The translations under genes were made by a program, and so were the position numbers. Below the pieces are notes generated by a model. That model was not told the origin of the DNA. It saw only the letters and a program-made list of their open reading frames with translations, and searched no databases. From Desulfobacterales bacterium (GTDB taxonomy: Bacteria > Desulfobacterota > Desulfobacteria > Desulfobacterales > Desulfosalsimonadaceae), in assembly GCA_018399235.1 (NCBI GenBank), contig JAGYOX010000017.1, positions 1 through 36,554 on the forward strand: a DNA stretch of 36,554 nt, read 5' to 3'. Of the stretch, positions 21,206-36,423 are shown in pieces. Each line of letters starts with the position of its first letter. Within the stretch, counting starts at the first letter, position 1.

Positions 21206-21328
21206 ATGGCAAAGCAAAAAGTTCAAGATCAAGGCGCGGCAAGTCCCGAGGCATGCAGCGTACTACCGCGTACGTGAAATGCCGAGGGACGCAGCGCAAC
21301 GCAGATATTGGGCTTTTTGCGAAGCCAT
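21206..21328. repeat. MITE-like palindromic repeat, copy 2
   Basis: From ATGGCAAAG at 21206 this copy matches copy 1 (13471-13592) nearly base for base, in the same orientation. It includes the inner stem with GTAC on both sides of a 6-nt loop and the right end ending in GCGAAGCC. Its left terminal inverted repeat is degraded, and the right one reads CTTTTTGCGA instead of CTTTTTACGA. The right end abuts the floA stop codon (21328-21330). Confidence 0.8.
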
Positions 21329-22326
21329 TATTCTTCGGAATCCGGTGTTTCGGGATACTCCTTGCCCTCATCGGTCTTGCCGATGGTATCCCGCATCTGG
21401 GTATCCGCCTCAATATTCTTCATCCGGTAATAGTCCATAATCCCCAAGTTGCCGCTTCGGAAAGCTTCAGCCATGGCCAGGGGCACTTCGGCCTCCGCTT
21501 CTACAACTTTTGCCCGCATTTCCTGAACCCGGGCCTTCATCTCCTGTTCGGCGGCATAGGCCATGGCCCGGCGCTCCTCCGCCTTGGCCTGGGCGATTTT
21601 CTTGTCCGCCTCGGCCCGGTCGGTCTCAAGCTCGGCCCCGATATTCTTGCCCACATCCACATCCGCGATATCAATGGATAAAATCTCGTAGGCGGTGCCC
21701 GAATCAAGCCCCTTTTCAAGCACCCGCCGTGAAATGCTGTCCGGGTTTTCCAGCACGTTCTTGTGGCTGTCCGAAGAGCCGATGGTCGTAACAATGCCCT
21801 CGCCCACCCGGGCCAGAATGGTTTCCTCGCCGGCACCGCCGACCAATCGCTCAATGTTGGCCCGCACGGTGACGCGTGATATGGCCCGCAGCTGGATGCC
21901 GTCCTTGGCCATGGCGGCTACCATGGGCGTTTCAATCACCTTGGGATTGACACTCATCTGCACGGCTTCCAGGACATTTCGGCCGGCCAGATCAATGGCG
22001 ACCGCCCGGTTGAAAATCAGGTCGATATTGGCTTTATCCGCGGCGATCAATGCCTGGACCACCCGCATGACATCCCCGCCGGCCAGGTAATGGGATTCCA
22101 GATCATTGGTGGATATCTCCAAACCGGCCTTGCTTGCCATGATTTTTGCGTTGACGATCAATTTGGGCGGGATTTTTCGAAACCGCATGAACACGATATT
22201 GAAAAGCCCCACAGAGGCGCCCGAAACCAGTGCCTGCACCCAAAGGGAAATTGCCGATCCAATAAAATAGATAAAAAGAATAACGGCAATGAAAAGTAGA
22301 ATAAAAAGAATATGGGTCAGTGTCAT
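21328..22326 (-). CDS. floA: flotillin-like protein FloA
   Basis: The 332-residue protein has an N-terminal membrane hairpin (about 4-50, [20 protein letters not shown] then a second hydrophobic stretch). A long SPFH-like, helix-rich domain follows, with [40 protein letters not shown] and [37 protein letters not shown], both diagnostic of the FloA/YqfA family. The C-terminal part (about 225-300) is a charged coiled coil ([27 protein letters not shown] pattern). FloA scaffolds functional membrane microdomains. It is third in a same-strand run with two NfeD proteins, its conserved partners. The start at 22326 has a GGAGAG Shine-Dalgarno. The acidic C-terminal tail is variable in the family. Confidence 0.95.
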
Positions 22327-22355
22327 AACGCTCTCTCCTATCTTTTGTTTTAATC

Positions 22356-22835
22356 TTAATCTAACTCCCTCACCACCACCCGGTTTCCCGCCACCGCAAT
22401 CACGATGACGGGTTTTTCCTTCTCGATAAACTCCCCCCGGCTAACCACATCCACCCGTCGGTTATCAATCATGGCCGTTCCCGCCGGGCGAAGATTGGTA
22501 AGGGTCCGCCCGGTTTTTCCCTTGTAACCCGTCAGTTTCTCGGACTGTGATGTCACCCCCTCGGTCTTTTTAAGGGATTTACGCAGGGTCACCGGCGAGT
22601 AGGCCAGAAGTTTCAATCCGGCGATCAGGACAATGGGCAGAATAATAATGTCGGCCACGACAAACATCATCCCGATTGACATGGACACCTCGGTAAACAC
22701 CGCATACAGGGAATACCCGAACAACCCGATGGCCAGAATGGTCAGGACCCCGCCGGACGGCAGTATGACCTCGGCAAGCAGGACCAGGATCCCGGCGATT
22801 TGCAGGATAATGGGAAATGTCAATTCAGCAATCAT
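22356..22835 (-). CDS. short NfeD-like membrane protein
   Basis: This 159-residue protein has three to four hydrophobic segments in its first 90 residues ([57 protein letters not shown]). A C-terminal OB-fold of the NfeD type follows ([42 protein letters not shown]). It lacks the serine-protease domain, so it matches the short NfeD class that interacts with flotillins. Its start overlaps the stop of the long NfeD gene by 4 nt (ATGA), and floA follows 29 nt after its stop. All three are likely one operon. The OB-folds of both NfeD proteins share the LRP.G...I pattern. Confidence 0.88.
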
Positions 22836-24328
22836 TCATCCACCGCTTTCCTTGCGACAATAATACGGTTTCCCGAGATCTCCGAGACAGCTACCTGCGC
22901 GCCGCGCTCAATGAATTCATTTTCCGTTACCACGTCAAACACGTCCGCACCGATTTTGACCTTGCCCGAGGGCCTCAACGCCGTCATCGCCACTCCCGTA
23001 TCCCCCGCATGCACGCGGCGCGCCTCACTGGAATCCGAATGCGCCTCCCTCAAGCTCGACGTCAGATACGGGCCTTCGGCGGCGGTTGAAAGCCGCGGCA
23101 GAACATACCGGATAAAAAACAGCCCCATGAAAAGGGACACCAGATAAGCGCCGAGAACCTTGATCACATTGTTTAAAAAAATCTCCGTCTCCCAGGGAAT
23201 GGAGGGATCCGGAATGACAAAATCCTGAAATGTTAATATCAGACCGGCAACAATGCAGAAAATCCCAGCAAATCCAGCAATGCCGAACCCCGGCAGCACA
23301 AAGACCTCAATGGCCATCAGCACCACCCCCAGCACGATAATCAAAAGCTCGGTATAGTCGGCCAGGCCCACCATGTACTGGTTTAGAAACACAATGGCTA
23401 AACATGCCAGACCGACAAGCCCCGGAATGCCGAAGCCGGGCGCCTTCATCTCCATGTATAGGGCGGCCAACCCGATCATCATCAATATCGGCGCGATGCT
23501 ACCGATAAACCGCACCATGGTTTCAGACCAGGAAGGTTCAAGCCGGGTCCGGCGGTACGGCCCATTCCCCCTTTTATTCAACATCTCGTCAATGCTCGAT
23601 ACGGTCATGGATGAAAACCCCAGCGCCAGGGCTTCAGCCGCCGACATGGTCAGCAGCTCCCCTTTTTCCACCACCGTTTTTTTCCCGGTTACACGCTCCT
23701 TTTCTTCCGGCGTCAGGTCTTCAAATGCCTGGCTGTCCATATATTTTTTTTCCCCGTCAATTTCCACGGCATACACTACCTTTTCCGGCGTTACCATGGC
23801 TTCAGTCAGGGCTTCAGGGTAGCCGTTGCGTTTGGCCAGGGCCCGAAATTTCGCCCGAATCGGAGATTGAAATTTCTCGCCCATCATCTGCGGACCTTCT
23901 TGAGAATAGGTAATCGGGGCGCAGTCCCCGATCGTGGTGGCCGGCCGCATCACAAGCTCCCCGCAGGAAAGCGCAATCAACGCACCAGCGGATATCGCCT
24001 TTTTTTCTACAAATGCAATGGATTGTTCAGCCGGCACGGTCAGCAGGGTATCCACGATTTCAAGGGCCGAATCCACCCGACCGCCGAAGGTATTGATTTC
24101 AAAGACAACCAGGCTGTCCGGCGCCTGTGCGGCCTCCCGGCAGGCCCGCTCCAAAAACGCCGACATGCCCGGATCCACCGTGCCGGATATGGGAATAACA
24201 AAAACTGGGCGTCCCTGGGACTGGGCATCGCCTTCCTGTGCATGAAGCGGAATAGCAGAAAAGAGCGCCAATAGGACCAAAACCGCCACAGCCTTGCAAA
24301 GCTTCTGAAATATTTGGCTAATCTGCAT
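22832..24328 (-). CDS. long NfeD protein with ClpP-like serine protease domain
   Basis: This is a 498-residue membrane protein. Residues 1-30 are a signal peptide, with a likely cut after PLHA. Residues 40-220 form a ClpP/SppA-like domain with VFEINTFGGRVDSALEI (75-91) and AISAGALIALSCGELVM (111-127); Ser113 is the candidate nucleophile, and Lys152 is a possible partner by distance. Several membrane helices span about 255-395, and an NfeD OB-fold (about 425-490, GDTGVAMTALRPSGKVKIG) ends the protein. Archaeal relatives cleave hydrophobic C-terminal segments of stomatin-like partners. The adjacent floA gene supplies the matching partner. The ATG overlaps nothing upstream; a divergent promoter region separates it from the acyl-CoA cluster. 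The catalytic Lys is inferred. Confidence 0.9.
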   Translation of the reverse strand: MQISQIFQKLCKAVAVLVLLALFSAIPLHAQEGDAQSQGRPVFVIPISGTVDPGMSAFLERACREAAQAPDSLVVFEINTFGGRVDSALEIVDTLLTVPAEQSIAFVEKKAISAGALIALSCGELVMRPATTIGDCAPITYSQEGPQMMGEKFQSPIRAKFRALAKRNGYPEALTEAMVTPEKVVYAVEIDGEKKYMDSQAFEDLTPEEKERVTGKKTVVEKGELLTMSAAEALALGFSSMTVSSIDEMLNKRGNGPYRRTRLEPSWSETMVRFIGSIAPILMMIGLAALYMEMKAPGFGIPGLVGLACLAIVFLNQYMVGLADYTELLIIVLGVVLMAIEVFVLPGFGIAGFAGIFCIVAGLILTFQDFVIPDPSIPWETEIFLNNVIKVLGAYLVSLFMGLFFIRYVLPRLSTAAEGPYLTSSLREAHSDSSEARRVHAGDTGVAMTALRPSGKVKIGADVFDVVTENEFIERGAQVAVSEISGNRIIVARKAVDE

Positions 24329-24542: not shown

Positions 24543-26432
24543 ATGAAAACCACCTATTGGCCGGATGAATACATTCAGAAACAGCGTACGGTGGAAGAAG
24601 CATTAGGCATCATTAAATCCGGCCATCGGATTTTCATTGGATCATCCTGTGCAGAGCCCCAGTATCTCGTTGAAGCCCTTGTGAAATCGGCCCATATGTT
24701 TCCGGACCTTGAAATTGTCCGTTTAATGAGCATTGAAAACTCACCCATTACACGTCTTGCCTTTGACAGTGAGAATGAGAACTTCAGCATCAGAAACATT
24801 TACCAGGGCTCGGCCACTGCCAAACATCTGTCAGCGAACCGCCCGTTTATAACTCCCATGCACATCTCCGCCGTACCCGGCCTTTTTTTGAAACGCCATC
24901 TGCCGATCAACACCGCATTAATCCAAACCTCTCCCCCGGATGACTTCGGCTGGATGAGCCTGGGCATATCGGTTGACGTTTGCCAGGCCGCCGCCCGGGC
25001 GGCTGAGCGGGTGATCGCCCAGGTTAATCCCAAAATGCCCCGGGTTTTGGGACACAGCTTTATCCACGTCAATGACGTGGATATCATCGTTGAAAAGGAC
25101 GAGGAACTGCTGACCCTTGACCAACTGCCCGAATTTGAGACCGCGCATAATATTGCCAAGATTGTGGCCAATCTCATTGAAGACGGCTCCACCTTTCAAC
25201 TCGGCCTCGGGGCCACCCCGAAAGCTATACTGCTCGCCCTCTCGGATAAAAATGACCTGGGGGTTCACACCCAGTTTATCATCGACGGCATCATGGATCT
25301 CGTTTCCATGGGGGTTATCACCAATCGGTATAAGGGCATCAATGACGGCAAGGCGGTAGCCAGCAATGCGGTTGGCTCAAAAAATCTTTATGAGTTCGTC
25401 CATGACAACCCGGCCATTGAGTTTTCCCCTTCCGACTATGTAAACAACCCCGCCGTCATTGCCCAGCATAACAAAATGGTTTCCGTCAACATGGTCATGG
25501 AAATGGACCTGACCGGTCAGGCGGCCGTTGACGCGCTGCCCCATAACTATTTTGCCGGGGTTTCGAGTATGCTTGATTTTGTCAGGGGAACTGATGCCTG
25601 CCCGGAAGGCAAATCGATTCTTCTTATCCCTTCGACCTCCATCGACGGGAAAACCAGCCGGATTATACCGACCCTTGAAAGCGGGGCGGTAGTGGTGCCG
25701 AGAAGCGATGTCTCCTATGTTGTCAGCGAATACGGGGCGGTCAATCTCTTCGGTAAAAACTTACAGGAGCGGGCCACCGCAATGATCAGCCTGGCCCACC
25801 CGGATTTTCGGGATGAACTGTTTCAGAAGGCCAGGGAATTAGGCCTGATGAGTCCGGGGCGAAAACTCAGTGAATCATTGCGCAGCGTCTATCCGGTCGG
25901 ACTGGAGGAGGCCCGCAAATACTGCGACCAGACGGTTAAGTTCCGGCCGGCCAAGCCCGTTGATTTGCGCCGCATCCAGGAACATTTTTACAACCTGGAC
26001 CGCCAGGACATTATTGCCCGGTTCTTCTATGAAAAGACCGCTTTCTTAAAAGATGACGTCGAATCCATGATTGAAACCGACTACATCAAAAACCTCACGA
26101 TTCTGGCCGTCACCGGCGAATTTGGGTTCGGAACGGTCATCGGACTCGGGGCCTATATGCTGGAGCCGAACAAGAACATCGCCGAAATCGCATTCTCCGT
26201 TTCCCGGCCCTGGCAGGGAAAGGGCATCGCCACCGTAATTCTTAATAAACTGGCCGAAGCTGCCAGGAAAAACGACGTTGACGGACTGGTGGCTTATACA
26301 TCGCCTGAAAACAAATCCATGATCAAACTTTTCCGAAAACTCCCCTACAAGGTCCACTCATCTCTGGATAACGGGATGATCATCCTTAACTGTCGATTCG
26401 AAAAGGAAGAGGAACCGGAACAACCCCAATAA
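24543..26432 (+). CDS. acetyl-CoA hydrolase/transferase-like domain fused to GNAT acetyltransferase
   Basis: This 629-residue protein has two modules. Residues 1-455 belong to the acetyl-CoA hydrolase / 4-hydroxybutyrate CoA-transferase family, with GSSCAEPQYLVEAL (33-46), TSPPDDFGWMSLG, LGLGATPKAIL (220-230) and VVSEYGAVNLFGK. The family nucleophile is a Glu in an HSE or HTE motif (Glu238 of clostridial AbfT). Here the motif reads VHTQF with Gln244 (codon CAG, 25272-25274), so classical CoA transfer is doubtful. Residues 467-622 are a GNAT domain with acetyl-CoA loop RPWQGKGIA (555-563). The fusion architecture is known in databases as a bifunctional type. It is followed 18 nt later by acs, then by an HDAC-like gene, which suggests a protein lysine acetyltransferase regulated by acyl-CoA. 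That role is inference. The start follows an AGAGAGG Shine-Dalgarno. Confidence 0.9.
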   Translation: MKTTYWPDEYIQKQRTVEEALGIIKSGHRIFIGSSCAEPQYLVEALVKSAHMFPDLEIVRLMSIENSPITRLAFDSENENFSIRNIYQGSATAKHLSANRPFITPMHISAVPGLFLKRHLPINTALIQTSPPDDFGWMSLGISVDVCQAAARAAERVIAQVNPKMPRVLGHSFIHVNDVDIIVEKDEELLTLDQLPEFETAHNIAKIVANLIEDGSTFQLGLGATPKAILLALSDKNDLGVHTQFIIDGIMDLVSMGVITNRYKGINDGKAVASNAVGSKNLYEFVHDNPAIEFSPSDYVNNPAVIAQHNKMVSVNMVMEMDLTGQAAVDALPHNYFAGVSSMLDFVRGTDACPEGKSILLIPSTSIDGKTSRIIPTLESGAVVVPRSDVSYVVSEYGAVNLFGKNLQERATAMISLAHPDFRDELFQKARELGLMSPGRKLSESLRSVYPVGLEEARKYCDQTVKFRPAKPVDLRRIQEHFYNLDRQDIIARFFYEKTAFLKDDVESMIETDYIKNLTILAVTGEFGFGTVIGLGAYMLEPNKNIAEIAFSVSRPWQGKGIATVILNKLAEAARKNDVDGLVAYTSPENKSMIKLFRKLPYKVHSSLDNGMIILNCRFEKEEEPEQPQ

Positions 26433-26450: not shown

Positions 26451-28406
26451 ATGACGGAGAAATATGATGTTCATTTGGAGGAATACCGGAAAACCGCCTT
26501 TATTAATAGCTGGGAGCAATATAAAGAGCTCTATGAAAAGTCCGTAGCGGATCCCGACGGGTTCTGGGCGGAACAGGCTCGAAAATACCTGACATGGGAC
26601 AGGGAGTGGGATTTTGTATTAAAATATGACTTCCATGAGGCCAAAATTGAATGGTTCGGGGGCGGCAGGCTCAATGCGTCATTTAACTGCCTGGATAGGC
26701 ACATGGATACGATCAGCGATAAGGTGGCCCTTTACTGGGAAGGGGACGACCCCAACGAGGCCAGAACCTATACATATGGCGATATTTACCAGCGGGTCAA
26801 CAAATTCGCCGGCGTGTTAAAATCAAAAGGCGTTAAAAAAGGCGACCGGGTTATTATCTATCTTCCCATGATCATCGAACTGCCGGTGGCCATGCTGGCT
26901 TGCGCCCGAATCGGGGCTATTCACAGCGTGGTGTTCGGCGGATTCAGCGCGGAGGCGATCGCCAACCGGATTATGGACTGCGGCGCGAAGCTCGTGATCA
27001 CTGCAGACGGTGGATATCGCGCCGGAAAAAGCGTGCCGCTTAAAAAAAATGTGAACGCAGCCCTTGAAAACTGCCCAGATGTTGAAAATGTGATAGTGGT
27101 CAACCGCACCGGCTCCGCCGACCAATTGGACGGCAAAAGGGAAATCTGGTGGGAAGACGCGATAGCTGATCCGAACCTGCCCGATTATATAGAACCGGAG
27201 CCCATGGATGCCGAGGATCCGTTGTTTATCCTTTACACCAGCGGCAGCACGGGGAAACCCAAAGGGGTAGTGCACACCCACGGCGGCTATCTCCTGTATT
27301 CCGCCATCACCACCCGGCTGGTATTTGACCTAAAAGACGATGAGATTTTCTGGTGCACCGCGGATATCGGATGGATTACGGGCCACAACTACATTCTCTA
27401 CGGTCCCATGATCAACGGCTTGTCAGGCGTCATGTTTGAAGGGGTGCCGAGCTATCCGGATTTTGACCGCTTTTGGGCGATTGTTGAAAAATACCGGGTC
27501 AACAAATTCTACACCGCTCCGACCGCCATACGGGCGCTGGCCAAAGAAGGCGATCACCATGTAACCAAGCACGACATCTCCTCGCTAAAACTCCTGGGCA
27601 CAGTTGGCGAACCGATCAATCCCGAAGCCTGGCGCTGGTATTTTCATCATGTGGGGCGGGACTGGTGCCCGATCATTGATACCTGGTGGCAGACCGAAAC
27701 CGGCGGCCATATGATCTGCCCTCTCCCCGCCGTTGCCCCGATCAAGCCCGGCTCCTGCTCGTTTCCCTTTTTCGGGGTGGATCCGGTGATCCTGGATGAT
27801 ACGGGAGAGCCGGTCAAATATCCCGAAGAGGAAGGCATCCTCTGCATCCGGCAGCCCTGGCCGGGTATCGCCCGAACGGTTTACGGGGATCATGAGCGGT
27901 TCCGCGACACCTACTTCAGCCATGTGCCCGGCATGTATTTTACCGGTGACGGCGCCAAGCAGGACGAAGACGGCTATTTTTGGATTATCGGACGGATCGA
28001 TGATGTCATCAATGTGTCCGGCCACCGCCTGGGCACCGCCGAGGTGGAATCCGCGCTGGTGCTGAATAAAAACGTGGCCGAAGCCGCGGTGGTAGGATTT
28101 CCCCACGACATTAAGGGCCAGGGCATATACGCCTATATCATTCTGAAAAGCGGTATCACCCCATCGGATGACCTGAAAAAGGAGCTTGTTCAGCAGGTAA
28201 GAAAGGAGATCGGTCCGATTGCCACCATTGACGTCATCCAATGGGCCGATGGATTGCCCAAAACCCGCAGCGGAAAAATCATGCGGCGCATCCTTAAAAA
28301 AATCGCCGCCGGCAAACTGAATGAACTTGGCGACACGTCAACCATTGCCGATGAATCGGTTATTGACAAACTGATTTCCGACCGGGTTGACATCTCCTCT
28401 TTATAA
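26451..28406 (+). CDS. acs: acetyl-CoA synthetase, AMP-forming
   Basis: The 651-residue enzyme activates acetate to acetyl-CoA via acetyl-AMP. The phosphate loop is [11 protein letters not shown] (262-272), the nucleotide motif is [10 protein letters not shown], the hinge is [20 protein letters not shown], and the A10 motif is [11 protein letters not shown] with Lys609. Lys609 is the same residue number as the acetylated, activity-controlling Lys of Salmonella Acs. Length and motif spacing match bona fide Acs, including the [15 protein letters not shown]-terminal region. An AAGGAGG Shine-Dalgarno precedes the ATG, 18 nt after the GNAT fusion. The downstream HDAC-like gene begins 15 nt after its stop. 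This order makes Acs the prime candidate for reversible acetylation. In an acetate-oxidising or acetate-assimilating anaerobe it feeds the acetyl-CoA pool. Confidence 0.97.
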
Positions 28407-28421
28407 AAGTGTAAACCTGCC

Positions 28422-29459
28422 ATGGGGATAAATATCGGGATAGCGAGGGATAACCGGTTTCTGGAGCATAAAACCGGTCATTTTCACCCCGAGCATCCCA
28501 AACGGCTGAATTCCATCTACCGGATGATAGACCGGGACTTTGGCGAAAAGCTGCTTTCATTTAAAGCCGTTCCCGCCCCAATGGATCTGGTCGAGGGAAT
28601 CCATTCCCCGGAGCATATCCGTCGGGTATTAAAAACCGCCGAACAGCATGTCACCAACCTGGCGCCGGACACACCGGTATCCGAACAATCCTATATGGCG
28701 GCCTGGTTGGCCGTTGGCGCCTGCCTTCAAGGGATTGACGCCCTGGTGGACGCTGACTGCAATGGTTTTTTTGGCCTGGTCCGTCCCCCGGGGCACCATG
28801 CCTTTGCCAACCGGGCCGGTGGATTCTGCATATTCAACAACATTGCCATTGCCGCCAAATATGCCATAAAAAAGTATCATTTAGAACGTATACTCGTCGT
28901 TGACTGGGATGTCCACCACGGAAACGGTTTACAATCGCTTTTCTATCATGACCCGCGGCTGCTCTATATTTCTACCCATGACCTGATGCTTTATCCATAC
29001 TCCGGGGAGATTGAACAGACCGGCACGGACTGGGGCGAGGGCTATACAATTAACGCACCGATTTCACGCTCAATGACAGATAATGATATCATCCGGCTGT
29101 ATCAATCGATTTTGATACCGGTGATCCACAATTTCAGGCCTGAATTGATTATGGTGGCGGCCGGGTTTGACGCCCATCAGGATGACCCGCTGGGCCGGTC
29201 CAGATGGACGGAGGCCGCATATGCGGGTATTACCCGGCGGATCATTCATGCCAAAAAAGCGGTCGGGGATCCCCCGGTCTTTCTCTCCCTTGAAGGCGGT
29301 TATAACCCCAGGGCACTTGCCAACTGTATCCGTTCTGTGCTATTAGAGCTCATTGAGAATAATCCTGAGATTCCGGAACTACCACCGGCGAATGAAAAAA
29401 CAGCCGGTCTGGTGGAACAGCTGCTTAAAATTCACTCACAATATGGACTCATGAAATGA
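28422..29459 (+). CDS. histone deacetylase family protein (AcuC-like lysine deacetylase)
   Basis: The 345-residue protein has the arginase/HDAC fold with an intact zinc site and active site. RPPGHHAF carries His125 and His126. DWDVHHGNG supplies ligands Asp163 and His165. GFDAHQDDPLG supplies Asp250. LEGGYN carries the catalytic Tyr294. The N-terminal HKTGHFHPEHPKRL segment is typical of class II-like bacterial HDACs and AcuC. Such enzymes remove acetyl groups from lysine or from polyamines. Placed between acs and a second acyl-CoA ligase, deacetylation of ligase lysines is the most economical reading, as AcuC does for AcsA in Bacillus. The substrate is inferred. It is coupled to neighbours by a 15-nt gap upstream and a 4-nt ATGA overlap downstream. 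Confidence 0.9.
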   Translation: MGINIGIARDNRFLEHKTGHFHPEHPKRLNSIYRMIDRDFGEKLLSFKAVPAPMDLVEGIHSPEHIRRVLKTAEQHVTNLAPDTPVSEQSYMAAWLAVGACLQGIDALVDADCNGFFGLVRPPGHHAFANRAGGFCIFNNIAIAAKYAIKKYHLERILVVDWDVHHGNGLQSLFYHDPRLLYISTHDLMLYPYSGEIEQTGTDWGEGYTINAPISRSMTDNDIIRLYQSILIPVIHNFRPELIMVAAGFDAHQDDPLGRSRWTEAAYAGITRRIIHAKKAVGDPPVFLSLEGGYNPRALANCIRSVLLELIENNPEIPELPPANEKTAGLVEQLLKIHSQYGLMK

Positions 29460-31189
29460 TTAAGGCTCGAATTCCGGCACAGAACGTAGAATCCGCCAAT
29501 CTAAAATCATATGATGATGCCTGCAGAGAATTTTCCTGGGCTGACATCGAAAAAGAATTTTCCTGGTACGGCCATGACCGGATGAATATCATCACCGAAT
29601 CCATTGACCGATGGGCCAATGATCCTAAGCGAGCCGACTACCCCGCCATGATTTTTCAAAAGCAGGGGGTTATTGAAACCTATACCTACCGGATGCTCAA
29701 AGAAAAATCCTGCCAATGGGCGGCCTTTCTTGCCGAACATGGGTTTGTCCAGGGGGATCGCTTGATCACCCTGCTTCCGCCGTCGCCGGAAACATTTTTC
29801 GCCATGGCCGCCTGCACCCGGATCGGTGTTATTCTCTGCCCCATATTCGCCACAGCCGGTTTTTATGAGCTTGAAATCCGGCTTGAATCCACTGCGCCAA
29901 GAGCCGTGCTAACCCATCCGGACCTTGTGGAAAAGCTGTCCTATGATTTTGCCTCGCAAGTCGAATACATCTTTCTCACCCAGTCCAAAGGTCCCGGCCT
30001 GTTCTCCAATGAGACCCCGGTGACCCAGAAAATTGACCAAATGCCTGTGGAATTTCCGGCGGCACAGCTGCCAGGGGACGCTCCGCTGTACATGATCTTT
30101 ACTTCAGGCTCCACCCGCCCGCCCAAGGGGATTATCCATACGCACCGCGATATGACCGGCATGCTGGCAACCGCCCGCTGGATTCTTGATGTCAGACCGG
30201 ACACCGTGCTTTGGACGGATGCGGACCCGGCATGGGTGACCGGGACGGTATACGGCGGCTTTGCAGCGTGGCTATGCGGGATCACCTCTATGGTTCAGGG
30301 CGATCCGTTTACCGCTGCCAACTGGTATTGGACGATTGAGAGACATAAGGTAAGCGTCTGGTACACAACTCCGCGGATCATAAGAGATTTGATGAATGCC
30401 GGCGACGATCTGCCATCCAGATACGATTTGAGCTCCCTCAAGCATATTGCCACCGTGGGCGCCCCCCTGGTGCCGGATATTTTCTACTGGGCCGGCAAGC
30501 ACCTGAACTGCTATCCGCATGACAACTGGTGGATGACCGAAACGGGAATCATATGCATTGCCAATTATCCGAGCATGGATATTAAACCGGGCGCCATCGG
30601 AAAACCGGTCCCGGGCATCCAGGCCGCCATTTTGGATGAAACCGGCGAGGAACTGCCCCCTTTATCCCTGGGCGAACTGGCCTTAAAGGCCCCGTGGCCG
30701 GGGCTGATGCATAACATATGGCAGGACAGCGGCCGGTTTCAAAAATATTTCAAAAATGACCAGTGGTTTGTTACCGGCGATATCGCCCTTTATGATGAAG
30801 AGGGCTATTTTTACCACCAGGGACGAAACGATGACTTATTAAAAGCCGGCGGAGAAAAGCTGATCGGCCCGTTTGAAATAGAGCAGGTGTTGACCTCTCA
30901 TCCGGCGGTATCCGAAGCTGCCGTCATCTCCAAGGGGACCGAACCGGGGGCGGGCACTTCCTATTTAAAGGCGTTTCTCACGCTTAAAAAAGGCTACATC
31001 GCCTCAAACCGGCTGAACTATGAGATCAAAGCGTATGTGAAAACCAATTTCAGCGCGGATGTCGAGATTCGGGAAGTATTGTTCCTTGATGCGCTGCCAA
31101 AAACCCGCAGCGGGAAACTCCTGCGCCGCGTTCTGCGGGCCTGGGAGCTGGGACTGCCCGGAGGGGACGTCATCAACATGCAAGACTGA
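29456..31189 (+). CDS. AMP-forming acyl-CoA synthetase with atypical phosphate loop
   Basis: This 577-residue ANL-superfamily ligase resembles the acetyl/medium-chain acyl-CoA synthetase branch. It has WTDADPAWVTGTVYG, NWWMTETG, a hinge GRNDDLLKAGGEKLIGPFEIE, and A10 PKTRSGKLLRR with Lys554. Its phosphate loop reads FTSGSTRPPKG (215-225), with Arg221 where nearly all family members have Gly (TSGSTGxPKG). The remaining catalytic marks are intact, so activity is likely but with altered nucleotide handling. The substrate cannot be set from sequence; short or medium carboxylates, branched or aryl acids are possible. The start overlaps the HDAC gene by 4 nt, giving translational coupling. Lys554 is a candidate target of the upstream GNAT and of the deacetylase. 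Confidence 0.88.
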   Translation: MIKARIPAQNVESANLKSYDDACREFSWADIEKEFSWYGHDRMNIITESIDRWANDPKRADYPAMIFQKQGVIETYTYRMLKEKSCQWAAFLAEHGFVQGDRLITLLPPSPETFFAMAACTRIGVILCPIFATAGFYELEIRLESTAPRAVLTHPDLVEKLSYDFASQVEYIFLTQSKGPGLFSNETPVTQKIDQMPVEFPAAQLPGDAPLYMIFTSGSTRPPKGIIHTHRDMTGMLATARWILDVRPDTVLWTDADPAWVTGTVYGGFAAWLCGITSMVQGDPFTAANWYWTIERHKVSVWYTTPRIIRDLMNAGDDLPSRYDLSSLKHIATVGAPLVPDIFYWAGKHLNCYPHDNWWMTETGIICIANYPSMDIKPGAIGKPVPGIQAAILDETGEELPPLSLGELALKAPWPGLMHNIWQDSGRFQKYFKNDQWFVTGDIALYDEEGYFYHQGRNDDLLKAGGEKLIGPFEIEQVLTSHPAVSEAAVISKGTEPGAGTSYLKAFLTLKKGYIASNRLNYEIKAYVKTNFSADVEIREVLFLDALPKTRSGKLLRRVLRAWELGLPGGDVINMQD

Positions 31190-31285
31190 CGGCACCTCTT
31201 ATTTTACCAATAAGGATGCTCTCTATGTCCGTAAAAAAGCAGACCGCCCTTAATGTAAAAGCAACCAACACTGGAGGTTTTGCAA

Positions 31286-34200
31286 ATGAAACCCTCGAAT
31301 ATTGCTTCGCTCTGGCAATCCCTGCTTGTGACGACAAAATATCCCATCACCTCAAGAAGCCGGCGCATTTTCTATAACTCCCTGTCTCACGGTCTCCTTA
31401 AGCTGATGGCCCTGCTTTTTAACCACCGGTCCGCTCTGAATGGCTATCTCAAGGGGGCAGACGGCTGGATCAACTTCAGCGTAGGTTTCGTCACGGAATC
31501 CGGCGGGGTCTGCCAGGCGGCCAGGTTTTATAACGGGCGGATGTCGGTCCTGAACAAAATCCCCGAAGACGCGGACGTGGTAATCCGGTTTGCCGATGAA
31601 GCGGCCCTTATGGAAATGCTCCGGGTCACCCCCAACGAGGTGCTCAACCTGATTTTAAAGAACCGGATGATCCTTGACGGCAATCTGGCGTACCTCCAGT
31701 TGTTCAACTACCTGGTCTCCCTCCTGATGGGTCGAAAGCACCAAAAGATGCTCGAAAAAGCCCATCAGCAGGATACCGCCTACCGCAAATCGACCTATGA
31801 TCAGAAAAACCCGGACCTCGCGCAAAAACTTTGCTCCCGCCATCACTACCGAATGACCGGGGACAAGGCCGATCCGGGCGTCAAACACCTTGACGATCCC
31901 TACCTTTCTCATTTCCGCCTAGATGATTTCCCGCGGCTTAAGTTTTTTCTTGACCGGTATTTCAACGAAATGCCGGAAATCTGCCCGGAACGTCCGCAGC
32001 TCTTGACAAAATGGTTCCGGGAAAACGGATTTGAAACCCGATCCGAGGACACGCCATGGATTCCGGAGCTTCGCCAGGCCCATGCATTTTCTTACCTGAT
32101 GGCCGATAAACAGCCCATCATCCGTGAAAATGACCTGGTGGCCGGAACCACAACCACAAACGACAATATCGGGGTGGTCATCTACCCGGATGCCCAGGGT
32201 GTCATGGCCTGGGGCGAATTGGCCTCCATTGACAAACGGGTGCTAAACCCCTACCGCATATCCGATGAAACCGCCCGTATTCTCCACCATGAGGTATTCC
32301 CCTTCTGGGCGGAGCGAAACTTCCGGGGATGGGTCAGAAAAGCCAATGGCTACCCGGACTGCCAGAAAATCGAGGAGCGCTGGGTGGCCTATTTTGTCTG
32401 GAAATCCGTGGGCATCTCGCATACCATCCCGCATTTTCCAACAATTCTTGAAAACGGCACCAGCGGGATAATAAACAAGATTGCAAACCGCCTGGCGGCG
32501 CCGGGTTTAACGGACAGGCAGCGGCACACGCTGCAAGCCATGGAGATTGCGCTTCAGGGGCTTGAGGCCTATGCCGGCCGCCTGGCTGAAACCGCGGCGA
32601 AACAGGCCCGAGCCGAAACCGATCCCAAACGGCAGGAAGAACTGCAACATCTCTCCCTCGTGCTCAAAAAAATTCCCCGGGAGCCGGCTGAGACCCTTGA
32701 TGAGGCTGTTCAGGTATTAAACCTCGTCTGGATCGCCCTGAACATGGAAAACGCCAATACCGGTATGTCCTTCGGCCGCTTGGACCAGTGGCTGCAGCCG
32801 TATTTTGAAAAAGATATGGCCGGATTGGCGGCCCCTGAAGAAAAGTCCGCATACATCCGCCATGCCATTGAACTCATCGGGTGCCTGTTTCTGCGGTTTT
32901 CAGATCATCTCCCCCTGTCCCCGGACATCGGCAACTATCTCTTCGGCGGGGCGTCTTCCACGCAGGCCCTGACCATCGGGGGGCTCGCCCGGGACGGGTC
33001 AGACGGCGTAAACGACATGACCTACATCATCCTCAAGGTAACCGAAATGCTGGGGATCCGGGATGTCAATGTAAACGCCCGGTTTCATCCGGAAGTAAAC
33101 ACAGGCACCTATCTTAAAAGACTCTGCGAGGTCAACTTTATCACGGCCGGCACCCCATCGATGCATAATGACCAGGCAGTATTCCAATCTTTGGATCAGC
33201 ACGGCTATCCAATAGAAGATATCCGGGACTGGTCCGCCACCGGCTGCGTGGAGCCAACAATATCCGGCAAGCATATGGGCCATACCGGATCGATCCTTTT
33301 CAACCTGGTGGCCCCGCTTGAGATGGCCCTGCACAACGGGGCCCACCCGCTCATGGGATGGACGCCCGGCCCCGCAACCGGGAGCATCGAAGCGGGGGAC
33401 TTCCCGGATTTTGAGTCGTTTTTCAAGGCATATGAAACACAGCTACGGTTTCTCATTGGCAAGGCGGTCGAATATAACAACATGCTGGCCAAAATCCATG
33501 CCGAATACCGGCCGACGCCGTTTTTAAGCACGATTATGCAGGGGACCATAGAAAATGCGACGGATGTGACCCGCGCCGGCGCCCTGTATAATACCTCCGG
33601 AACCTCGAATATCGGGCTCGCCGACGTCATCGACTCGCTGATGGTGATCAAGAAAATGGTCTTTGATGAGAAATCGATCCCGTTCGCCCGCCTGAAGGCC
33701 GCCATTGACAACGACTTCTCGGATGATACCGAACTCCATGCCCTTATCTCAAGCCGGGCCCCCCGATTCGGCTCCGGTGATCCGGAGGCACTTGAAATGG
33801 CCCGGCGGCTTACCGGATTGATTCATGATATCCATCGCGGCCACACCAACTTCAGGGGCGGCCCCTATACCACGGGCTTTTGGTCCATGTCCCAGCATGT
33901 GGCCTACGGCACCCTTTCCGGGGCGCTGCCTTCCGGCCGGCGATTCGGCAAGGCCTTTACCCCCGGCTTGACTCCGAATCCCGCAGCCTCCGTCAATTTT
34001 CTGGACAACCTTCGGGATGTGGCACAGCTTGATCCCGCCACCATGGACAACAACATCGCGTTCAACGTCAAGCTCAACCCAAGCCCCAAGGATTCCCGGG
34101 AAAAAACCGTTGATATCATGGCCTCCTATGTCAAGGCCTATTTTGATATGGGCGGCATGCAAATGCAGTTTAACGTGGTTAATTCGGAAACCCTGAAGGA

Positions 34201-34327
34201 TGCCATGGCCAATCCCGATGCCTATCGCCAACTCATGGTCCGCATTTCAGGCTACAACGCCTATTTTGTCATGTTAAACAGGGACATCCAGATTGAACTC
34301 ATCGAACGGGCCGAATACGGCATTTAG
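31286..34327 (+). CDS. glycyl radical enzyme with N-terminal SCP2-like domain
   Basis: The protein has 1013 residues from the ATG at 31286, chosen because GGAGG lies 8 nt upstream (a TTG two codons earlier is also open). Residues of about 45-150 resemble an SCP2 lipid-binding domain (WINFSVGF, CQAARFYNGRMSVLNK, DADVVIRFADEAALMEML, ILDGNLAYLQLFNYLV). Residues of about 190-1013 form a PFL-like glycyl radical enzyme. It has the thiyl Cys654 and Glu656 in ATGCVEPT, and the radical Gly989 in VRISGYNAYF, 24 residues from the end. GCVE is the pattern of eliminase/lyase-type members such as glycerol, choline and propanediol enzymes, not of PFL itself (CC motif). The substrate is unknown. A radical SAM activase is required but none is in the window. 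It lies between acyl-CoA ligase genes on the same strand. Confidence 0.9.
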   Translation: MKPSNIASLWQSLLVTTKYPITSRSRRIFYNSLSHGLLKLMALLFNHRSALNGYLKGADGWINFSVGFVTESGGVCQAARFYNGRMSVLNKIPEDADVVIRFADEAALMEMLRVTPNEVLNLILKNRMILDGNLAYLQLFNYLVSLLMGRKHQKMLEKAHQQDTAYRKSTYDQKNPDLAQKLCSRHHYRMTGDKADPGVKHLDDPYLSHFRLDDFPRLKFFLDRYFNEMPEICPERPQLLTKWFRENGFETRSEDTPWIPELRQAHAFSYLMADKQPIIRENDLVAGTTTTNDNIGVVIYPDAQGVMAWGELASIDKRVLNPYRISDETARILHHEVFPFWAERNFRGWVRKANGYPDCQKIEERWVAYFVWKSVGISHTIPHFPTILENGTSGIINKIANRLAAPGLTDRQRHTLQAMEIALQGLEAYAGRLAETAAKQARAETDPKRQEELQHLSLVLKKIPREPAETLDEAVQVLNLVWIALNMENANTGMSFGRLDQWLQPYFEKDMAGLAAPEEKSAYIRHAIELIGCLFLRFSDHLPLSPDIGNYLFGGASSTQALTIGGLARDGSDGVNDMTYIILKVTEMLGIRDVNVNARFHPEVNTGTYLKRLCEVNFITAGTPSMHNDQAVFQSLDQHGYPIEDIRDWSATGCVEPTISGKHMGHTGSILFNLVAPLEMALHNGAHPLMGWTPGPATGSIEAGDFPDFESFFKAYETQLRFLIGKAVEYNNMLAKIHAEYRPTPFLSTIMQGTIENATDVTRAGALYNTSGTSNIGLADVIDSLMVIKKMVFDEKSIPFARLKAAIDNDFSDDTELHALISSRAPRFGSGDPEALEMARRLTGLIHDIHRGHTNFRGGPYTTGFWSMSQHVAYGTLSGALPSGRRFGKAFTPGLTPNPAASVNFLDNLRDVAQLDPATMDNNIAFNVKLNPSPKDSREKTVDIMASYVKAYFDMGGMQMQFNVVNSETLKDAMANPDAYRQLMVRISGYNAYFVMLNRDIQIELIERAEYGI

Positions 34328-34599: not shown

Positions 34600-36423
<1,824 letters not shown>

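Follow-up and report, generated by a model that had tools for sequence, protein, structure and literature searches.

Gene organization of the locus

The window analysed here, a stretch of 36,554 nucleotides from a Desulfobacterales bacterium (assembly GCA_018399235.1, contig JAGYOX010000017.1), contains a gene in which a CoA-transferase-like module is fused to a GNAT domain, followed on the same strand by genes for Acs, a deacetylase and a second acyl-CoA synthetase (Table 1). In the fusion protein Pfam recognizes AcetylCoA_hydro at residues 9-189, AcetylCoA_hyd_C at 278-430 and Acetyltransf_1 at 525-600. The deacetylase, which has the active-site motifs expected of the AcuC/HDAC type, lies near an acetyltransferase and Acs as in an acuABC arrangement, and such a gene is present in 17 of the 20 regions examined. 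Downstream of the operon and on the same strand are genes for a glycyl-radical (pyruvate formate lyase-like) enzyme (31280-34327) and an AMP-binding acyl-CoA synthetase (34600-36423). Upstream, on the minus strand (21328-24328), NfeD1b, short NfeD and flotillin-like FloA genes stand in a row.

Table 1. Features of the fusion gene and its operon, in window coordinates.
Feature	Position	Strand	Remarks
CoA-transferase-GNAT fusion gene, 629 aa	24543..26432	+	intact ORF
CoA-transferase-like module, residues 1-440	24543..25862	+	Pfam PF02550 and PF13336; catalytic Glu and Gly388 equivalent replaced
Codon CAG, Gln244, at the AbfT Glu238 / AarC Glu294 position	25272..25274	+	alignment
Ser341-Ser342-Met343, replacing the Gly-Gly-Gln motif	25563..25571	+	Ser342 at AarC Gly388, mapped by eye
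GNAT domain, residues 446-629, with Glu548 at PatZ Glu809	25878..26429	+	Pfam, alignment, fold
Acs, PKTRSGK intact	26451..28406	+	18 nt past the fusion gene; AGGAGG in the gap
AcuC/HDAC-type deacetylase (Hist_deacetyl, PF00850)	28422..29459	+	15 nt past Acs
Second Acs-like acyl-CoA synthetase, also with PKTRSGK	29456..31189	+	4-nt overlap with the deacetylase gene

Active site and structural model

The closest solved relatives of the N-terminal module, as found by phmmer, are 4-hydroxybutyrate (4HB) CoA-transferases, and both sequence and fold place the module in this family. It scores 252.2 bits against the NCBIfam equivalog TIGR03948 (butyryl-CoA:acetate CoA-transferase), short of the cut-off of 674.8. 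In the phmmer alignment Glu238 of AbfT (3gk7) stands opposite Gln244 of the fusion, the residue being counted from the printed alignment, and two further 4HB-transferases also have Glu in this column. The catalytic Glu of class I CoA-transferases is thus replaced in a two-domain CoA-transferase-GNAT protein, as the preliminary description of this DNA had proposed. The segment G385-I-G-G388 of AarC falls on G339-V-S-S342 of the fusion and N347 on N301, as mapped by eye through two alignments chained via an AarC-like protein. By this mapping Asn301 is kept and Ser342 takes the place of Gly388, the external oxyanion-hole glycine that the passages of PMC4876117 on AarC term strictly conserved across the superfamily. 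The window protein therefore has an altered nucleophile and, by this mapping, a partly altered oxyanion hole together with retained fold-defining columns, and the change to Ser342 may reshape the pocket or cleft.

An AlphaFold2 model of the fusion, built with 40 sequences, reached a pLDDT of 86.6 and a pTM of 0.84. Its N-terminal part matches 4HB-CoA transferases with Z scores of about 48-51, including CoA-bound AtoA (2oas; Z 50.7, 1.8 Å over 415 residues). These fold matches, together with the alignment and the column conservation described below, bear out the earlier view that the fold has been kept and the classical catalytic residue lost. For the modelled C-terminal part the matches are the GNAT domain of S. 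lividans Pat, from a structure with an Acs C-terminal domain (4u5y; Z 24.4, 1.7 Å over 163 residues), and PatZ (9it0; Z 21.4); these two Pat-type structures are the nearest solved ones by sequence as well as by fold. In the alignment Glu548 lies opposite E809 of PatZ, and this position is E or D in 182/182 fusion rows, a set that counts the window gene two times and contains several near-duplicates. The domain is accordingly a GNAT of the Pat kind that carries the postulated catalytic Glu, as expected of a Pat/AcuA-type lysine acetyltransferase of Acs. Since E809 mutants of Pat/PatZ retain some activity, according to the account of these mutants in PMC8556138, the conservation of residue 548 says little on catalysis. 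The analogy with Salmonella Pat drawn in the preliminary description holds in so far as the GNAT domain is nearest to Pat-type enzymes among solved structures, and an operon with Acs and a deacetylase fits the functional parallel.

Distribution of the fusion and the residue at position 244

The window genome encodes two more CoA-transferase-GNAT fusions, with His-Thr-Gln (L002) and His-Thr-Pro (L003) at the catalytic position. A query of this genome (92.8% complete) with the GNAT part gave no match at E <= 0.001 beyond the three fusions. The gene for L003 (1492-3348, minus strand, contig C57) lies, as judged by eye, just downstream of a same-strand AMP-forming acyl-CoA synthetase-like gene. 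Gln244 is present in all 25 aligned rows of the window family (L001, L006-L028, L088), which come from different genomes and use both CAG and CAA codons, ruling out a single oddity or a sequencing error. Further matches of this family outside the 25-row alignment occur in G008, G020, G023 and G027, and there are some second copies as well.

With stand-alone transferases included, matches were found in 60/60 genomes comprising the window's and 59 relatives, and in 104/148 genomes sampled from the phylum. For the archaeal fusion L150, 10/81 genomes of its phylum have a near full-length match, L150 being the one member in which residue 244 was read. A species-wide scan covered one genome per species from 84,980 species, using among others the pattern K[NK]DLG[IV]HT, which leaves residue 244 free and favours the preceding His-Thr. 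The best 80 of its 575 matches, mostly metagenome bins, include fusions from records whose titles name Desulfobacterales, Krumholzibacteriota, Latescibacteria, WOR-3, Poribacteria, Verrucomicrobia and several archaea.

Clustering at 82% identity gave 162 representatives (135 fusions and 27 stand-alone transferases), a set preferred for counting because the full alignment holds the window gene twice (P0001, L001) and some genomes via two collections; L162 and L029, with a stop in the matched stretch, were left out of sets A3 and A1, respectively. The representative fusions have at position 244 Q (60), E (49), P (8), D (8), L (3), H (2), G (2), M (1), R (1) or F (1), and the stand-alone representatives E (19), G (5), Q (2) or T (1). 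The inspection of the Glu238 column across two-domain proteins that had been suggested as a check thus supports Gln as a widespread state, but Glu in 49/135 representatives means that not all fusions have lost it, and the notion that every GNAT fusion is dead was rejected on the same count. Within type A, the wider clade of the window gene (72 representative rows), only 8/72 have Glu244, compared with 41/65 representative fusions outside it, archaeal ones included, where Glu is usually accompanied by a Gly-Gly motif. The reappearance of Glu within type A shows that its loss is no fixed requirement. As regards the joint state of a carboxylate at 244 and the glycine pair at 341-342, the 135 fusions divide into 78 with neither, 47 with both, 10 with the carboxylate only and none with the glycines only. 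The association is strong in these raw counts, but with just two changes of the glycine pair along the tree and an independent-pairs test devoid of power, we do not claim it statistically.

Several variants of the motif deserve mention. All 12 of the Asp244 fusions listed (L066, L068, L069, L070, L078, L081, L141, L142, L146, L160, L169, L179) have the Gly-Gly pair. A Glu-to-Asp change reportedly converts a related CoA-transferase into a hydrolase, and by analogy the Asp244 proteins may be natural acyl-CoA hydrolase-acetyltransferases. At columns 221-223 the window family reads G-L-G; S-P-G or D-P-G stands there in the Glu244 members of type A L032, L036, L038, L042, L046, L093, L127 and L139. 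L101 and L121, with Glu244 and also of type A, are exempt from this pattern, and Pro in these columns also occurs with Gln244 (L091, L104); coupling between columns 221-223 and 244 is possible. Six stand-alone proteins (L252, L253, L255-L257, L259) read His-Ser-Gly, with Gly at the catalytic position and Gly-Gly kept, and form another branch devoid of both Glu and GNAT.

History of the loss of Glu244

The history of the family was analysed in trees of the CoA-transferase part (425 columns, trait columns excluded), a quick tree of 162 rows and a careful tree of 98 rows. A single branch splits the fusions from the stand-alone transferases (SH-aLRT 98 with 162 rows; bootstrap 99 and SH-aLRT 98 with 98 rows). 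Four stand-alone rows fall on the fusion side of the larger tree, namely L182 and L250, which probably stand alone after loss of the GNAT domain, and L136 and L140, which belong to type A, L136 stopping at its contig end. Type A together with L067 is firmly recovered (100 and 100/100), and type A without L067 is unsupported (0 and 81/0). The Gln clade of L002 (clade B) is supported at 100/100 with a weak placement (90/18). A third clade (C) with Pro, His, Gly or Leu at 244 is supported at 97/91, its Glu-bearing neighbours joining it with values of 93/85 (L189) and 95/77 (L191 and L196). The branch uniting A and C has 98/91 in the careful tree but drops to 17 in the larger, quick one, and an AU test did not reject A, B and C as one clade (p 0.105). 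The Asp clade (94/78) has Glu rows nested inside it. The carboxylate would therefore have been lost at least once, and three times as we read the best tree.

The groupings that reappear in a tree of the GNAT part are A with L067 (100), B (100), C (89) and the Asp clade including the Glu rows nested in it (77); by and large the two domains have travelled together. The GNAT tree does not recover C joined to L189, L191 and L196, so that the position of these rows at the base of C comes from the CoA-transferase tree. As Glu244 is the state in most stand-alone neighbours and in the early fusion branches, the phylogeny points to an early fusion that carried Glu, with a presumably active CoA-transferase domain, followed by loss of Glu in some lineages, and to the window lineage as a derived, disarmed form. 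This modifies the proposal that a dead CoA-transferase independently gave rise to a Pat-like design: the functional parallel stands, but with Glu in the early fusions and in most of those outside type A the design did not start from a dead domain, the disarming having come after the fusion and not before it.

Selection on the CoA-transferase domain

Loss of the catalytic residue has not been followed by decay of the domain. Between the window gene and L006, L007 and L008, dN/dS is 0.040, 0.044 and 0.062 for the CoA-transferase part and 0.084, 0.066 and 0.111 for the GNAT part, at a high dS of about 0.6 to 1.6; saturation affected a fourth pair. In 60 Glu-bearing rows outside type A, 52 CoA-transferase columns show a conservation of 93% or higher, and type A retains 44 of these at 75% or more. 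The eight lost columns are 87, 93, 99, 221, 244, 333, 341 and 414, the reference residue remaining in 11% of type A rows at 244 (Glu), in 0% at 341 and in 46% at 221. In the GGQ motif of type A, Gly341 is never present and Gly342 persists in 83%, the window protein having SSM. The statement in the preliminary description that the other family blocks are intact is thus right for 44 of the 52 columns, but not for the eight that were lost, nor for residue 342 of the window protein. Fifteen columns, such as R60, R84, F135 and W137, have become near-invariant specifically in type A; the only acidic residues among those newly conserved are D8 and E65, both distant from the motif in sequence. The domain is under strong selection for a purpose other than classical CoA transfer.

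Gene neighbourhoods of the fusion

Genes for Acs, the second ligase, AcuC, an ADP-forming synthetase, RACo and CdhD were sought next to the fusions. Acs and/or AcuC lie no more than 6 kb away at 18 of the 19 window-family loci (matches scoring over 980 bits, with 2.5 kb or more of downstream sequence); 15 have the two together, and all 19 have the second ligase. The complete operon is also found outside the window family (L098, L232). Among 47 other type A loci, two have Acs or AcuC (3/48 counting L232), 17 have RACo or CdhD within 6 kb and 27 have none of the genes sought. The 28 loci of other fusions comprise six with Acs or AcuC, five with an ADP-forming acyl-CoA synthetase and 17 with none; the six include L232, although it is actually of type A, and L239, which has just a partial AcuC-like gene at the edge. 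Altogether 44 of the 75 loci outside the window family lack any such partner. Any partner present makes acetyl-CoA or could reverse acetylation, these being the only kinds of gene sought. As Acs is mostly absent beside the gene outside the window family, it may not be the general substrate. Among the Glu-bearing fusions, too, some have AcuC-like genes (L143-L145, L153) or Acs (L149, L153, L235) next to them.

In many other Desulfobacterales (L091, L092, L094-L097, L105, L107, L108, L110, L111, L115, L116, L126, L138, L139, L225-L227) a relative of the fusion closely precedes genes for RACo and/or CdhD (CODH/ACS), CdhD lying on the opposite strand in L226. This arrangement suggests that protein acetylation is connected with the Wood-Ljungdahl pathway.

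Proposed function

The textbook example of lysine acetylation in bacteria is the reversible acetylation of Acs. The fusion gene of the window probably represents an uncharacterised acetyl-CoA-linked switch. The reading we lean towards is that of a Pat/AcuA-like lysine acetyltransferase for Acs, in which the disarmed CoA-transferase serves as an acyl-CoA-sensing or oligomerising domain, the architecture and the loss of the residue being established, the substrate and the sensing inferred. The CoA-transferase domain would fold and keep much of its CoA cleft and, with Gln244 and Ser342, would no longer turn over acyl-CoA. It would instead report the level of acyl-CoA or CoA, or hold the oligomer together. 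The GNAT domain would acetylate the lysine of the PKTRSGK motif in the adjacent Acs, closing this enzyme when acetyl-CoA is abundant, and the AcuC-type deacetylase would undo the modification. A disarmed domain of this kind could still bind its ligand. According to the parts of PMC4876117 that deal with the AarC mutant E294A, this protein, which for equal mass has no more than about 1/10,000 of the wild-type units, crystallises closed around CoA (4eub) and around a ketone analogue of acetyl-CoA (4euc), so that loss of the Glu need not abolish acyl-CoA binding. The same source predicted a clash of the Glu in the closed complex with the ketone analogue; a change from Glu to Gln could therefore permit the domain to close on acyl-CoA without reacting with it, which a sensor would require.

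Three other readings compete with a sensing domain attached to an Acs acetyltransferase. The CoA-transferase domain could be a scaffold for folding or oligomerisation only, with no regulatory ligand, the GNAT tracking acetyl-CoA through its own site. This would agree with the alteration of the conserved glycines 221, 341 and 342 in all or part of type A, and with the treatment of oligomerisation in PMC8556138, where E. coli PatZ is described as a tetramer regardless of acetyl-CoA and Pat activity as tied to oligomerisation. We consider it rather unlikely, as the very strong purifying selection and the many reference columns retained seemingly go beyond the needs of a scaffold, the new near-invariant columns of type A also argue against it, and Salmonella Pat, unlike PatZ, tetramerises on acetyl-CoA in the account just cited. 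The GNAT domain could also mainly target another acetyl-CoA-forming system (CODH/ACS proteins or the second Acs-like ligase) or many proteins, the link to Acs being local to the window family; the RACo or CdhD genes near 17/47 other type A loci and the ADP-forming synthetases adjoining 5/28 other fusions fit such targets, but the regular presence of Acs and/or AcuC at the window-family loci and the intact lysine motif of Acs make this, for the window protein, an unlikely explanation.

That the domain has remained an enzyme, working as a slow transferase or hydrolase in which the substrate turns Gln244 into Glu or another residue serves, strikes us as very improbable. Gln and Glu do interchange at 244 within type A, and a Glu-to-Gln mutant of glutaconate CoA-transferase is said to regain activity in a substrate-driven manner. 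Against this, type A also has M, R, F, H, L and P at the position, glycines 341 and 342 are never both kept in the 78 representative fusions lacking a carboxylate at 244, and the newly conserved acidic residues D8 and E65 lie far from the motif in sequence.

Beyond the window family, we tentatively suggest, as something possible rather than probable, an undescribed class of protein acetyltransferases in several bacterial phyla and archaea, with a built-in CoA-transferase that was initially active and has in some lineages been disarmed to an acyl-CoA sensor, tuning whichever acetyl-CoA-forming enzyme the host uses (AMP-forming Acs, ADP-forming acyl-CoA synthetase or CODH/ACS).

Comparison with known systems

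The fusion resembles Salmonella Pat, E. coli PatZ and S. lividans PatA (types I and II) in joining a Pat-like GNAT to a degenerate CoA-handling enzyme domain, with Acs as the expected target. It differs from them in that the partner is a class I CoA-transferase instead of an NDP-forming acyl-CoA synthetase, a domain that the Pfam scan of the fusion (E <= 0.001) did not find, and in that many of its relatives keep the catalytic residue of the partner domain. With the AcuA-AcuC-AcsA system of B. subtilis it shares the company of acetyltransferase, AcuC-type deacetylase and Acs, and reversible acetylation of an Acs lysine would be expected in both. The AcuA of B. subtilis is described in the relevant sections of PMC8556138 and PMC11255334 as essentially a lone GNAT domain, encoded in an operon with AcuB, whereas the window GNAT bears a CoA-transferase domain and no AcuB-like (CBS/ACT) gene was found among the eight neighbouring genes scanned. 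The 4HB-CoA transferases AbfT, AtoA and RipA have the same fold and 36-41% identity over residues about 4-440, but the window fusion is without their catalytic Glu, has a changed GGQ motif and carries the additional GNAT. Other CoA-transferase-GNAT fusions (archaea, WOR-3, Krumholzibacteriota, Desulfobacterota and others) have the same architecture and stand on the same side of the tree, those outside type A mostly with the Glu kept and in one further clade with Asp and the Gly-Gly pair.

The classification of bacterial acetyltransferases into types I-V in PMC8556138 has, in the part that sets out the types, none with a CoA-transferase domain, types I and II coming closest to the fusion. Within the open-access literature, the scope of our search, no paper on a CoA-transferase-GNAT fusion was found. 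The design of a GNAT plus a degenerate CoA enzyme is already known; what is new is the CoA-transferase fold as partner, how old and widespread the fusion is, and that versions with the Glu and versions without it exist side by side. Even in Pat-type enzymes the role of the enzyme-like partner domain is 'not completely understood', in the wording of one passage of PMC8556138. Another, unrelated fold that handles CoA and fills this role, occurring naturally in Glu-bearing and disarmed versions, makes the role testable. It would also bring protein acetylation to the acetyl-CoA node in Desulfobacterales and in those archaea that have ADP-forming synthetases. In RefSeq such proteins carry the name 'bifunctional acetyl-CoA hydrolase/transferase family protein/GNAT family N-acetyltransferase'.
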